A DNA stretch of 64,000 nucleotides from positions 1-64,000 of the forward strand of contig DATEMU010000004.1 of the NCBI GenBank assembly GCA_035275405.1, written 5' to 3'. The position numbers and the translations under genes were made by a program. Of the stretch, positions 30,666-37,639 are shown piece by piece. The stretch is from Phycisphaerae bacterium. Its GTDB lineage: Bacteria; Planctomycetota; Phycisphaerae; UBA1845; UTPLA1. Positions within the stretch are counted from its first letter, which is position 1. Every line of letters begins with the position of its first letter. The notes beneath the pieces were generated by a model. That model was not told where the DNA came from. It did no database searches and saw nothing but the letters and a program-made list of their open reading frames with translations.

Positions 30666-31478
30666 TCAATAGACAATCGAACCGTCAATTGGCGAACTCG
30701 CCGTCGCGTACAGTTTTTTCGGAATCCGCCCCGCCCGAAAAGCCAAATACCCCGCGTCGAGCGCATGCGCCATCGCCCGCGCCATCGCCACCGGGTCCTT
30801 CGCGCCGGCGATGCCGGTATTGAGCAGCACACCGTCCGCACCGACTTCCATCGCGATCGTCACGTCGCTCGCCGTACCCACTCCCGCATCGACGATGACG
30901 GGATAATCGGGATCACCCTCCTTGAGCATCTCCAGAATGATGCGAATATTGTTGGGGTTGAGCACGCCCTGCCCGCTGCCAATCGGGCTGCCTGCGGGCA
31001 TGACGCTCGCCGCCCCCGCCTCCTTCAACCGGCAGGCCGCCGCCACGTCGTCGCTCGTATAAACGAGCACCGAAAACCCGTCCTTGATCAGCTCACGTGT
31101 CGCCTCCAGCGTCGCGAGAGGATCGGGCAGGAGCGTCTTCTTGTCGTGCAAGACCTCCAGCTTGACCCAAGCCGCGCCGGCGTTGTTCAACTGTTCCAGA
31201 ATCTCCCGCCCCAGCCGCGCCACCCGCACCGCATCGTCCGCCGTAAAACACCCCGCCGTATTCGGCAGGATCGTGTACCGCGTCGTATCGATGAATTCGA
31301 GCAGGCTTCGCTGCTGGGCGTCGTACAGTCGCTCGCGCCGCACCGCGACCGTCACGACTTCGCACCGGCTCGCCTCCAGACATTCGCGCATCAGTTCATA
31401 CGTCGCGTACTTGCCGGTGCCCACGAACAACCGCGAGCGAAAACTCTGCTGGCCGATCTTCAAAGGTTTCGGATCCAT
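30666..31478 (-). CDS. thiG: Thiazole synthase
   Basis: A 270-residue ThiG, forming the thiazole moiety of thiamine from DXP, dehydroglycine and ThiS thiocarboxylate. Landmarks: [46 protein letters not shown] with the catalytic Lys, [33 protein letters not shown] and [16 protein letters not shown]. Length is typical. It starts 8 bases after thiS; its GGGGGAGG ribosome site is made of the codons for the ThiS C-terminal Gly-Gly. Confidence 0.96.
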
Positions 31479-31821: not shown

Positions 31822-32331
31822 TCAGGACTTCAGCAATGCCTCTATCTCCGCCGCCAGTTTTTCCTCATCGCCCGGCCCCCAGCCGAGATGCGACGAGGAG
31901 ATCTTTCCCTCGCGATTAAGCAGATAAGTCTTGGGAATTCCGCCGCCGCCGTAACTCTTTTTGTAGAGCGAGCCGCCATTCATCAGGATCGTGTACGGCA
32001 GTTTTTGGTCGGCCACGAATTTCGCCACGCGATCCTTCGGCTCGTCCCATGCATTCACGGCGACGATCCGCAACCCACGATCAGCGTACTTCTCATGCAG
32101 CGCCTTGAGGTGCGGAGCCTCCGCACGGCAGGGCCCTCACCCGACCGCCCAGAAACCCAGCAGCACGACGTTCCCGCGATGTTCCGACAGGCTCACGATC
32201 GTGCCGTTAAGGCTGACCAACCGGAAATCCTCGGCAACCTGACCGCGTTGCTCTTTTCCGGTCGAACATCCCGCCGTCGCGAGCGCCGCTGCACCGAACA
32301 GGAACCACCGATACGATTGTCTCTTCATCAT
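31822..32331 (-). CDS. Thioredoxin/TlpA-like lipoprotein with in-frame UGA (putative selenoprotein)
   Basis: A single frame of 169 codons interrupted only by TGA at 32137-32139 (codon 65). The N-terminus is a lipoprotein signal with lipobox ATAGC (Cys22). The next part is TlpA/ResA-like (VAEDFRLVSLNG, VVLLGFWAVG). TGA then stands exactly at the first Cys of the active site: FWAVG-U-GPCRAEAPHL, where relatives have WCGPC. Downstream the fold continues without a break (RIVAVNAWDEP, GGGGIPKTYLLNREGKI). The resolving Cys is kept, so the motif would be UGPC. A hairpin follows (see SECIS entry). Alternative: a nonsense change or base-call error from TGC, making a pseudogene. Likely role is thiol-disulfide exchange at the outer face of the inner membrane. 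Confidence 0.7.
32106..32139 (-). promoter_or_regulatory. SECIS-like hairpin after in-frame UGA
   Basis: On the minus strand the UGA is followed by 16 nt and then a 5-nt apical loop AGGCU closed by a perfect 6-bp stem (GUGCGG / CCGCAC; 32121-32126 and 32110-32115). UGAG at the base can also pair with CUCA just after the stem. Known bacterial SECIS elements have a stem-loop whose loop begins 16-37 nt after UGA with a G in its first two loop positions; both hold here. The sequence is coding at the same time. Confidence 0.55.
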
Positions 32332-32371: not shown

Positions 32372-33025
32372 CTACTTTGCGCCATCGGATGCCGAGCGTA
32401 CCGCCGCAACAAATCGCGAGATTTTCTCCGCCGACTTCACCCCGGGACTCGTCTCCACGCCGGTCGAGACGTCCACGCCCCAGGGACGCAGCCGGCGGAC
32501 GGCGGACCGCACATTCTGCGGCGTCAACCCGCCGGCGAGGATGATCGGCGGCGCGCCATCGAGGGCCCCGGCTTCGCGCGCCCCCGCCACAAGGTCCCAG
32601 TCGAAACGCCGCCCGCTGCCGCCGCGCGCGGTCGGCGAAAACGCGTCCAACAAAACGCCGCTCACGCCCGCCTTCGCAAACTTCTGCATGTCGTCGATAA
32701 AAGTCTTGTTACGGACCCGGAGAGCCTTCACGACGCGCAATCCGCCCAGCGCCGTGGCGAGCGACAGCGACTCCTCGCCGTGGAGCTGAACCTCGCTTAG
32801 CCCCACCTCAAGTACAGCATTGAAAATCGTCGGCACATTGGCATTGGCAAACACGCCCACAATCGACACAAAGGGCGGCACTTCCGCGGCGATCCACTTC
32901 GCCTTCCGAAGCGTCACCTGCCGCGGCGACTTGGCAAAGACGAGCCCGATCGCGTCTGCCCCAGCCTCGGCGCAGGCGACCGCGTCCTGTGCCCGCGTGA
33001 TCCCGCATATCTTGATCCTGGTCAT
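32372..33025 (-). CDS. trpF: Phosphoribosylanthranilate isomerase
   Basis: A 217-residue TIM barrel, the third step of tryptophan synthesis. It begins TRIKICGITRAQDA with the catalytic Cys in KICG, and continues ADAIGLVFAKSPRQV, EVQLHGEES, LLDAFSPTARGGSGRRFDW with the catalytic Asp, and the C-terminal ILAGGLTPQNV and GVDVSTGVETSPGVKS. The ATG at 33025 gives the family length; a longer reading has no support. It stands alone, without other trp genes, and lies 40 bases before the thioredoxin-like gene on the same strand. Confidence 0.95.
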   Translation of the reverse strand: MTRIKICGITRAQDAVACAEAGADAIGLVFAKSPRQVTLRKAKWIAAEVPPFVSIVGVFANANVPTIFNAVLEVGLSEVQLHGEESLSLATALGGLRVVKALRVRNKTFIDDMQKFAKAGVSGVLLDAFSPTARGGSGRRFDWDLVAGAREAGALDGAPPIILAGGLTPQNVRSAVRRLRPWGVDVSTGVETSPGVKSAEKISRFVAAVRSASDGAK

Positions 33026-33111
33026 GGCGCCGAACCTTGTATCCCCACGCTCCTCCAGCGTACCATGCTCTGTCGCGCTTCGGAACGCAACGCCCCGCAA
33101 GGACCCCAGTT

Positions 33112-34905: not shown

Positions 34906-35865
34906 CTACTGTTGCATCGCCAGCTTCTGCGCAATCGACTCGCGCGAAGGCAGACGTACCTCCCACGCCAGACCCAGCAGCTTCAGGACCCGGATGACCA
35001 GGTAGCTGGCATCGATCTCCCACCACCGCAGCCCATGCCGCGCGGACGTGGGAAATGCATGATGGTTGTTATGCCAACCCTCGCCCCAGCCGAGCAATCC
35101 GAAGATCACGTTGTTCCGGCTCTGGTCCCCGCTGCGAAAGGGCCGACTGCCCCAAATATGACACGCCGAGTTGATGCTCCAGGTGATATGGTGCACGAGA
35201 AACACCCGCACCAGCCCACCCCAGATAAAGCCGAGCAGCGCGCCCATCCACGACATCGTCAGGACACCGCCGAGCAGCGCCGGCAACAACAGACCGATCG
35301 TCACCCAGAAAGTAAAGTGCCGATTGATGAACTGGATCGGTCGATCGTTGCGAAAGTCGCCGACATAGCGCATCAGATCGGGCGGGTTGGGCTCGAAAAG
35401 CCAGCCGACGTGCGAGTGCCAGATTCCGCTTAGGAGCCCCCAGAATCCTCCGCCGTGCTGATGGGGGGAATGGGGGTCTTCCTCATGATCGCTGTGCTGA
35501 TGGTGCCGCCGGTGCGTCGCCACCCATTCCAACACCGGGCCCTGAACCGCCATCGAGCCCGCGATCGCCAGGAGGCATTTGACGGTACGCGTTGTTTCGA
35601 ACGCGCGATGGGTAAAAAAGCGGTGAAAACCAATGGTGATTCCGAGACCGGTGGTAACGCTCATGCCGAAGAAAAGCCCCAATTGGATCCAACTGAAGCC
35701 GTACCCCCACGAAAGCACGATCGCGGCAATGAGGGCAAGAAACGGTATGACAATCGCCAGCAGGTTAATGAGCCAGGTGCTCCACGGGAGGGTGTGCAGC
35801 GGCGATTCGTCAATGTCAAGCGCGGCGGACGGCGGAAGGCTCAGGGTCGATGCAAGGTTTTGCAT
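34906..35865 (-). CDS. Acyl-CoA/fatty acid delta-9 desaturase-like, copy 1
   Basis: A 319-residue membrane di-iron desaturase. The three His boxes are HRFFTHRAF, HRRHHQHSD and HNNHHAFP, in the order and spacing of OLE1/DesC-type delta-9 desaturases that act on acyl chains at the membrane face. Four hydrophobic segments flank them. ATG at 35865 has AGGAAG upstream. A hairpin with a T run lies between it and the RRM gene upstream, so expression may depend on read-through. It is a close paralog of the desaturase at 36674-37639. Likely role is membrane fluidity adjustment, for example in cold. Confidence 0.9.
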   Translation of the reverse strand: MQNLASTLSLPPSAALDIDESPLHTLPWSTWLINLLAIVIPFLALIAAIVLSWGYGFSWIQLGLFFGMSVTTGLGITIGFHRFFTHRAFETTRTVKCLLAIAGSMAVQGPVLEWVATHRRHHQHSDHEEDPHSPHQHGGGFWGLLSGIWHSHVGWLFEPNPPDLMRYVGDFRNDRPIQFINRHFTFWVTIGLLLPALLGGVLTMSWMGALLGFIWGGLVRVFLVHHITWSINSACHIWGSRPFRSGDQSRNNVIFGLLGWGEGWHNNHHAFPTSARHGLRWWEIDASYLVIRVLKLLGLAWEVRLPSRESIAQKLAMQQ

Positions 35866-35880
35866 TTCTTCCTCAAAGGC

Positions 35881-35924
35881 AAAAAATGATGGAAAGGGAC
35901 GACCCATCGGCCTTCCCTTTCCAT
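35881..35924 (-). terminator. Terminator-like hairpin between RRM gene and desaturase
   Basis: A perfect 11-bp stem (35889-35899 with 35914-35924; ATGGAAAGGGA and its complement) and a 14-base loop, followed on the minus strand by ATC and six T. It stands in the 89 bases between the RRM stop and the desaturase start, close to the latter's ribosome site, so it could end or attenuate read-through. Confidence 0.75.
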
Positions 35925-36673: not shown

Positions 36674-37639
36674 CTAGCCCGCATTCTGCGCCGCCAGTTT
36701 TTGCGCAATCGTCTCACGCGACGGTTGGCGTACCTCCCACGCCAGACCAAACAGCTTGAGGAGTCGAATAACCAGGTAGCTCGCATCGAACTCCCACCAC
36801 CGCAGGCCATGCCGCGCGGACGTGGGAAATGCATGGTGGTTATTGTGCCACCCCTCGCCCCAGGCGAGTACGCCGAAGATGAAATTGTTGCGACTGTGAT
36901 CCCCGCACCGAAACGGCCGGCTGCCCCAGATATGACACGCCGAGTTGATGCTCCATGTCACATGATGCACGAGAAAAACGCGCACCAGACCGCCCCAGAT
37001 GAGCCCAAGCAGCGCCCCCATCCACGTCATCGTCACCAGCCCGCCGATGATCGCCGGGAGCAACAGCCCCATCGCTACCCAGAGAACGAACGACCGGTTC
37101 ACGAATTGGATCAGCCGATCTTCGCGAAAGTCGCCGATGTAACGCACCAGGTTTGCCGGATGTGCATCAAACAGCCAGCCGACGTGCGAGTGCCATATCC
37201 CGCGAATCAGCCCCCAGAATCCCTCGCCGTGCTGGTGCGGCGAATGCGGATCGTCCGGTCGGTCGCTGTGCTGATGGTGCCGCCGATGAATAGCCACCCA
37301 GTCAAGCACCGGTCCCTGTACCGCCATCGATCCGAGAATCGCGAAAAAGCCCTTGATCGGCGCGATCGTCTCGAAGGCGCGATGGGTGAGCAGGCGATGA
37401 AATCCGACCGTAACGCCGATGGCCGTGGCCGAGTACATCCCTACCAGCAGGCCGAGCTGCAGCCAACTGAACCCCGGCCCCCACAGGAGCACGATGGCCG
37501 CAATGACGGCGAGAAACGGCAGGATGATGGCGAGAAGATTGGCGATCCAGGTGCCCGCAGAGATGCCGGGCAGTGTGGCCAGTTCGGGCTCGGACGCTGG
37601 AGGCAGTCGCAGATCGAGGAACGCTGAAGAGCTTTGCAT
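36674..37639 (-). CDS. Acyl-CoA/fatty acid delta-9 desaturase-like, copy 2
   Basis: A 321-residue paralog of the desaturase at 34906-35865. Its His boxes are HRLLTHRAF, HRRHHQHSD and HNNHHAFP. The membrane segments and the C-terminal RHGLRWWEFDASYLVIRLLK are almost the same as in copy 1; the N-terminal 30 residues differ. It has its own promoter and long leader (copy B). Together with copy 1 and the RRM gene it forms what looks like a membrane and RNA cold-adaptation group (inference). Confidence 0.92.
   Translation of the reverse strand: MQSSSAFLDLRLPPASEPELATLPGISAGTWIANLLAIILPFLAVIAAIVLLWGPGFSWLQLGLLVGMYSATAIGVTVGFHRLLTHRAFETIAPIKGFFAILGSMAVQGPVLDWVAIHRRHHQHSDRPDDPHSPHQHGEGFWGLIRGIWHSHVGWLFDAHPANLVRYIGDFREDRLIQFVNRSFVLWVAMGLLLPAIIGGLVTMTWMGALLGLIWGGLVRVFLVHHVTWSINSACHIWGSRPFRCGDHSRNNFIFGVLAWGEGWHNNHHAFPTSARHGLRWWEFDASYLVIRLLKLFGLAWEVRQPSRETIAQKLAAQNAG

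Follow-up and report, generated by a model that had tools for sequence, protein, structure and literature searches.

Does the single TGA inside a thioredoxin-like reading frame of this Phycisphaerae bacterium mark a damaged gene, or is it read as selenocysteine (Sec)? The locus lies in the window, by which is meant the whole stretch of 64,000 nucleotides that was analysed. The first-pass annotation had seen two frame-aligned halves of a thioredoxin-like lipoprotein around one TGA at 32137-32139, and had proposed that UGA is read as Sec to give UGPC, with a TGC-to-TGA error as the main rival. The two halves are borne out on the minus strand, and the features of the gene and its surroundings are as follows.

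31822..32331, minus strand: TlpA/ResA-like selenoprotein gene, 169 amino acids, from the ATG start at 32331 to the TGA terminator at 31824-31822, translated with the internal TGA read through
32137..32139, minus strand: Sec-UGA codon, residue 65, the first residue of UGPC, from the read-through translation and the codons of homologs
32110..32126, minus strand: bacterial SECIS hairpin GUGCGGA-GGC-UCCGCAC, 7 bp with a 3-nt GGC loop that starts 17 nt 3′ of the UGA
32266..32331, minus strand: lipoprotein signal peptide with lipobox ATAG/C (Cys22), from the sequence itself; Cys22 is invariant and Gly21 nearly invariant in the family alignment
32128..32130, minus strand: resolving Cys68 of UxxC, invariant in the family alignment A2
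32119..32121, minus strand: Glu71, invariant in A2 and aligned with the catalytic-site Glu of ResA (CEPCxxE; ResA 4nmu alignment)
32372..33100, minus strand: upstream neighbour, an ORF that is trpF-like (phosphoribosylanthranilate isomerase by sequence), with matches near the homologous genes in two other genomes
30666..31478, minus strand: downstream neighbour, thiG-like from its translation, preceded by a thiS-like ORF

The minus-strand translation from 32331 to 31822 reads MMKRQSYRWFLFGAAALATAGCSTGKEQRG...VVLLGFWAVG-U-GPCRAEAPHLKALHEKYADRG...EIEALLKS*, and the read-through product contains a single internal in-frame TGA (32139-32137, residue 65) in the context FWAVG-U-GPCRAEAPHL. Both sides of this codon belong to one thioredoxin-like domain: a Pfam search with the joined protein returned AhpC-TSA (4.5e-21) and Redoxin (1.2e-20), and the domain spans the join. 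The fold continues to a normal end at the terminator, as the first pass had described. The forward strand of the same interval gives a different, unrelated open frame, and this reading was rejected. In alignment A2, which supplied the search profile and the invariant columns, the N-termini of rows L020 and L028 are approximate; of the invariant columns, this affects the start Met only. Elsewhere in the window, two closely similar fatty-acid-desaturase-like genes are arranged in tandem on the minus strand (34906-35907 and 36674-37639), with a gene for a small RNA-binding (RRM-like) protein between them.

Homologs 50-57% identical to the gene were found. When relatives were aligned, UGA or Cys was found at the same place: in the 61 genomes examined from the family and order, TGA occupies precisely this codon in 14 homologs, all outside the genome of the window, and TGC or TGT is used in others (L020, L025, L027 and L032). 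The in-frame, non-terminating UGA is therefore aligned with the Cys of homologs, at the first Cys of CGPC and with the second Cys intact, as the first pass had placed it. Elsewhere in the phylum, across which 392 genomes were examined, 23 larger proteins also have TGA at the equivalent codon of their TlpA domains. Proteins of this larger type (L098-L120 and L124) have approximately 450-640 residues and carry a C-terminal TlpA domain with UGMC, UGIC, UGAC or UGPC, accompanied by the same SECIS. A scan of named genomes with one query sequence returned three relatives only, and the matches listed from a plasmid search comprised only Cys-type or distant TlpA/ResA proteins.

The RNA around the codon gives a second line of evidence. 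The rules for bacterial SECIS elements call for a loop of 3-9 nt, a stem of 4-16 bp, G in the first two loop positions and a distance of 16-37 nt from the UGA (PMC13188914), and the hairpin of the window gene satisfies them. All 7 of its stem pairs are found in 36 of 38 TGA homologs vs none of 20 Cys homologs, and 98% of stem cells are paired in the 38 Sec forms vs 47% in the 20 Cys forms; the loops of the Sec forms are GGC, GUC, GGU or GUU. Two Sec homologs, L030 and L099, have stems that are shortened or shifted in the fixed register. Among 31 distinct Sec sequences, two-sided compensatory changes are seen in 10 cells (C-G to U-A, A-U or G-C; G-C to A-U), located at pairs 16-28 and 17-27, and the covariation score was matched by none of 500 shuffles and by no slid register. 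Some of these compensatory changes cost an amino acid: the peptide RAEAPH becomes RKEAPY or RREAPY where the stem pairs change, and the Cys forms mix these freely. The stem also forces the choice of Arg codon on its 5′ side, with CGT in 34 of 38 Sec forms vs 0 of 20 Cys forms. As a background, of approximately 1,750 further TGA triplets of the window, only 2 are followed 16-37 nt away by a stem of at least 6 bp with a G[GU][CU] loop; these two chance hairpins (1843 and 29298, minus strand) lie within other genes and out of frame. The folding energy of the SECIS region alone is modestly low against codon-shuffled sequences (z -2.05) because the peptide is conserved, and presence or absence of the stem together with covariation are better tests. 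When the genome was searched with the SECIS model, the window gene scored 61.7 bits, and a second TlpA selenoprotein gene (see below) was matched weakly, at 16.8 bits, among chance matches.

The distribution of the two forms bears on the explanation that the first pass had ranked as the main rival, namely that a Cys-type tlpA gene shows TGA for TGC through an error of sequencing or assembly, or has recently suffered a nonsense mutation. On a tree of 69 domains, built on exact translations, 11 Sec/Cys changes are needed and 8 of them are forced by well-supported branches; thus Sec and Cys have been exchanged at least eight times. In one genus, the Sec form lies near recJ in two genomes (G001 and G012), and two tandem Cys copies are found there in a third (L070, G015:C35). 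L020, the sister and nearest relative of the window gene at 57% identity, carries Cys, which speaks for this explanation. L020, however, keeps 5 of the 7 stem pairs, as a gene that formerly encoded Sec would, and looks like the product of a recent Sec-to-Cys change. The same TGA in the 14 further genomes and in many more of the phylum, and the perfect, covarying stem confined to TGA forms, also stand against an error. Because TGA and SECIS occur together in dozens of independent genomes, a TGC-to-TGA error cannot explain the data; for this gene we regard it as highly improbable, and at the level of the family the explanation is already refuted.

Is Sec decoding available to this organism? The first pass had proposed a search for selA, selB, selD and tRNA-Sec, and all were found in the host genome (5.29 Mb in 19 contigs, 96% complete): selA at 522.9 bits, selB at 302-326 bits immediately upstream of selA, selD at 371 bits, and a tRNA-Sec(UCA) gene at 71 bits with the anticodon TCA, also given by ARAGORN as tRNA-SeC(tca). 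The selD gene (L049, G000:C8:89261-90184, minus strand) has an in-frame TGA of its own, in CAG-U-AGK, and is a selenoprotein gene itself; its UGA is followed at 33 nt by a 7-bp hairpin, GGCGCAG-GTC-CTGCGCC. The presence of selA, selB, tRNA-Sec and a selD with in-frame TGA indicates that Sec decoding is in use in the genome. A second TlpA-like selenoprotein (L056, G000:C3:87042-87428, minus strand) has the site FWATW-U-APCRSGIPHL and a long repeat-like C-terminal tail, and its homologs carry UGPC in at least five related genomes. Its hairpin, GCATCTG-GTT-CAGATGC, lies 30 nt after the UGA and covaries in relatives of L056. The host genome thus encodes at least two further selenoproteins beside the window gene.

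Across genomes, selA was detected in 14 of the 15 that carry the Sec form; the fifteenth, the TGA-bearing relative G028, gave no selA match, but its assembly reaches 80% completeness and is contaminated (6%). No TGA form appeared among the matches listed for four well-assembled genomes lacking selA (G020, G026, G030 and G042). This co-occurrence test has little power, since 52 of the 61 relatives have selA.

The UGA might instead encode a different amino acid, such as Trp or Cys, or simply be read through, with no selenium involved, and the frame would be open under any such code. Against this, TGA is an ordinary terminator in the window, where it ends the Sec gene itself, thiG, recJ and other genes; moreover, the full Sec machinery with tRNA-Sec is present, the UGA is aligned with Cys and not with Trp, and a SECIS follows it. 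A reading free of selenium is thereby given no better a chance than the error. Taken together with the homolog codons and the covarying SECIS, the machinery supports the Sec reading of the first pass, whose computational checks all turned out in its favour; in practice, neither an error of sequencing nor a pseudogene nor a reassigned code need be considered further.

A different proposal is that the functional product is the 64-residue N-terminal piece, made for translational control, and that the Sec reading is minor. Decoding of UGA as Sec competes with termination in bacteria, which would allow such a piece to arise. But the part encoded 3′ of the UGA contains Cys68, the cis-Pro loop and the larger share of the fold; it is conserved and evolves under purifying selection (dN 0.042 and dS 0.51 between L022 and L024), and we consider a truncated product even less credible than the two proposals above.

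What kind of protein is then made? With the family profile, ResA (4nmu) was matched at E 7.6e-35, and among solved structures ResA and DsbE/TlpA-like proteins come closest; at the sequence level, a thioredoxin-like domain with a CxxC-type site and cis-Pro is evident. Almost certainly, the gene encodes a small, membrane-anchored, periplasm-facing thiol-disulfide oxidoreductase of the TlpA/ResA type, with Sec as the attacking residue and its UGA decoded through SECIS and SelB. This reading is based on the observed frame, conserved UGA, covarying SECIS, complete Sec machinery, fold family and lipobox; from these we infer that Sec is incorporated in vivo, and also where the protein is located, in which redox direction it works, and what its electron donor and substrate are. 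In the proposed mechanism, SelB and Sec-tRNA-Sec(UCA) would decode UGA codon 65 under the direction of the SECIS with its loop 17 nt downstream. Sec65, in place of the N-terminal Cys, would attack a substrate disulfide, Cys68 would resolve the mixed selenenylsulfide, and the resulting selenenylsulfide would be re-reduced, presumably via the single DsbD/CcdA-type membrane transporter of the genome (detected as DsbD_TM), a possible donor. Probably, as judged from sequence, the protein acts on the periplasmic side of the cytoplasmic membrane, where it would reduce disulfides or some small oxidised molecule.

ResA and StoA of Bacillus, CXXC thiol-disulfide oxidoreductases of the lipoprotein or membrane-anchored type, resemble the window protein in fold, in the position of CxxC, in the cis-Pro region and in a Glu six residues after the first Cys, but they have Cys where the window protein has Sec. 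In system II cytochrome c maturation, ResA usually acts together with ResB. The latter was not found (PF05140) in the 96% complete host genome, so that a ResA-type role in cytochrome c maturation, with the ResB/ResC partnership of ResA proper, is unsupported; the score against the model of ResA proper (NCBIfam NF002854) is 89.8 bits vs a cut-off of 170.

Selenoproteins of related kinds have been described. A thiol-disulfide isomerase-like selenoprotein with TlpA_like domain cd02966 and UxxC was reported in 2005 from four environmental sequences of the Sargasso Sea set (PMC1088965), and a cd02966 UxxC selenoprotein is also listed in PMC13188914. Compared by description, the window protein shares with that UxxC class the TlpA-like domain and Sec at the N-terminal active-site position; the available part of the description contains neither a lipoprotein nor a planctomycete subfamily. 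The Prx-like thiol:disulfide oxidoreductase (PF00578) and the Redoxin family protein (PF08534), UxxC selenoproteins in the same source (PMC13188914), share UxxC and the best-scoring Pfam domains of the window protein. The ResA-like WAxxUGC motif protein (NF041054) and the UGC-containing TlpA family also combine a TlpA-like fold with active-site Sec, but NF041054 has UGC where the window protein has UGPC (UxxC), and the score is 39.7 bits vs a cut-off of 300. Indeed, none of the NCBIfam models that the window protein matched, selenoprotein models included, gave a score that reached its cut-off. It is a genuine selenoprotein of its own uncatalogued subfamily within the known UxxC TlpA-fold selenoproteins; because that class is already catalogued, it is a new subfamily member and not a new kind. 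To the first pass, the analysis adds the minus strand, the ResA-like subfamily, the SECIS, the repeated Sec/Cys turnover and the further selenoproteins.

A broader reading, to which we give an even chance, joins these genes into one group of UxxC TlpA-domain selenoproteins that spans the Planctomycetota and has not been catalogued; its members are small lipoproteins in this order and C-terminal domains of larger proteins elsewhere. The group would use one narrow SECIS type, a 7-bp stem with a 3-nt G[GU][CU] loop, common to three selenoprotein genes of the host genome at 17, 30 and 33 nt from their UGA. The pairing would dictate which amino acids flank the active site, Ala/Val combined with His or Lys/Arg combined with Tyr, until released on Sec-to-Cys reversion. 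With SECIS nearly always intact beside UGA and decayed beside Cys, the family is a clean natural experiment on Sec/Cys exchange. Automatic annotation tends to call such a gene a pseudogene or two fragments and, as no NCBIfam selenoprotein model covers it, the selenium use of this large, mostly uncultured phylum is likely under-counted.
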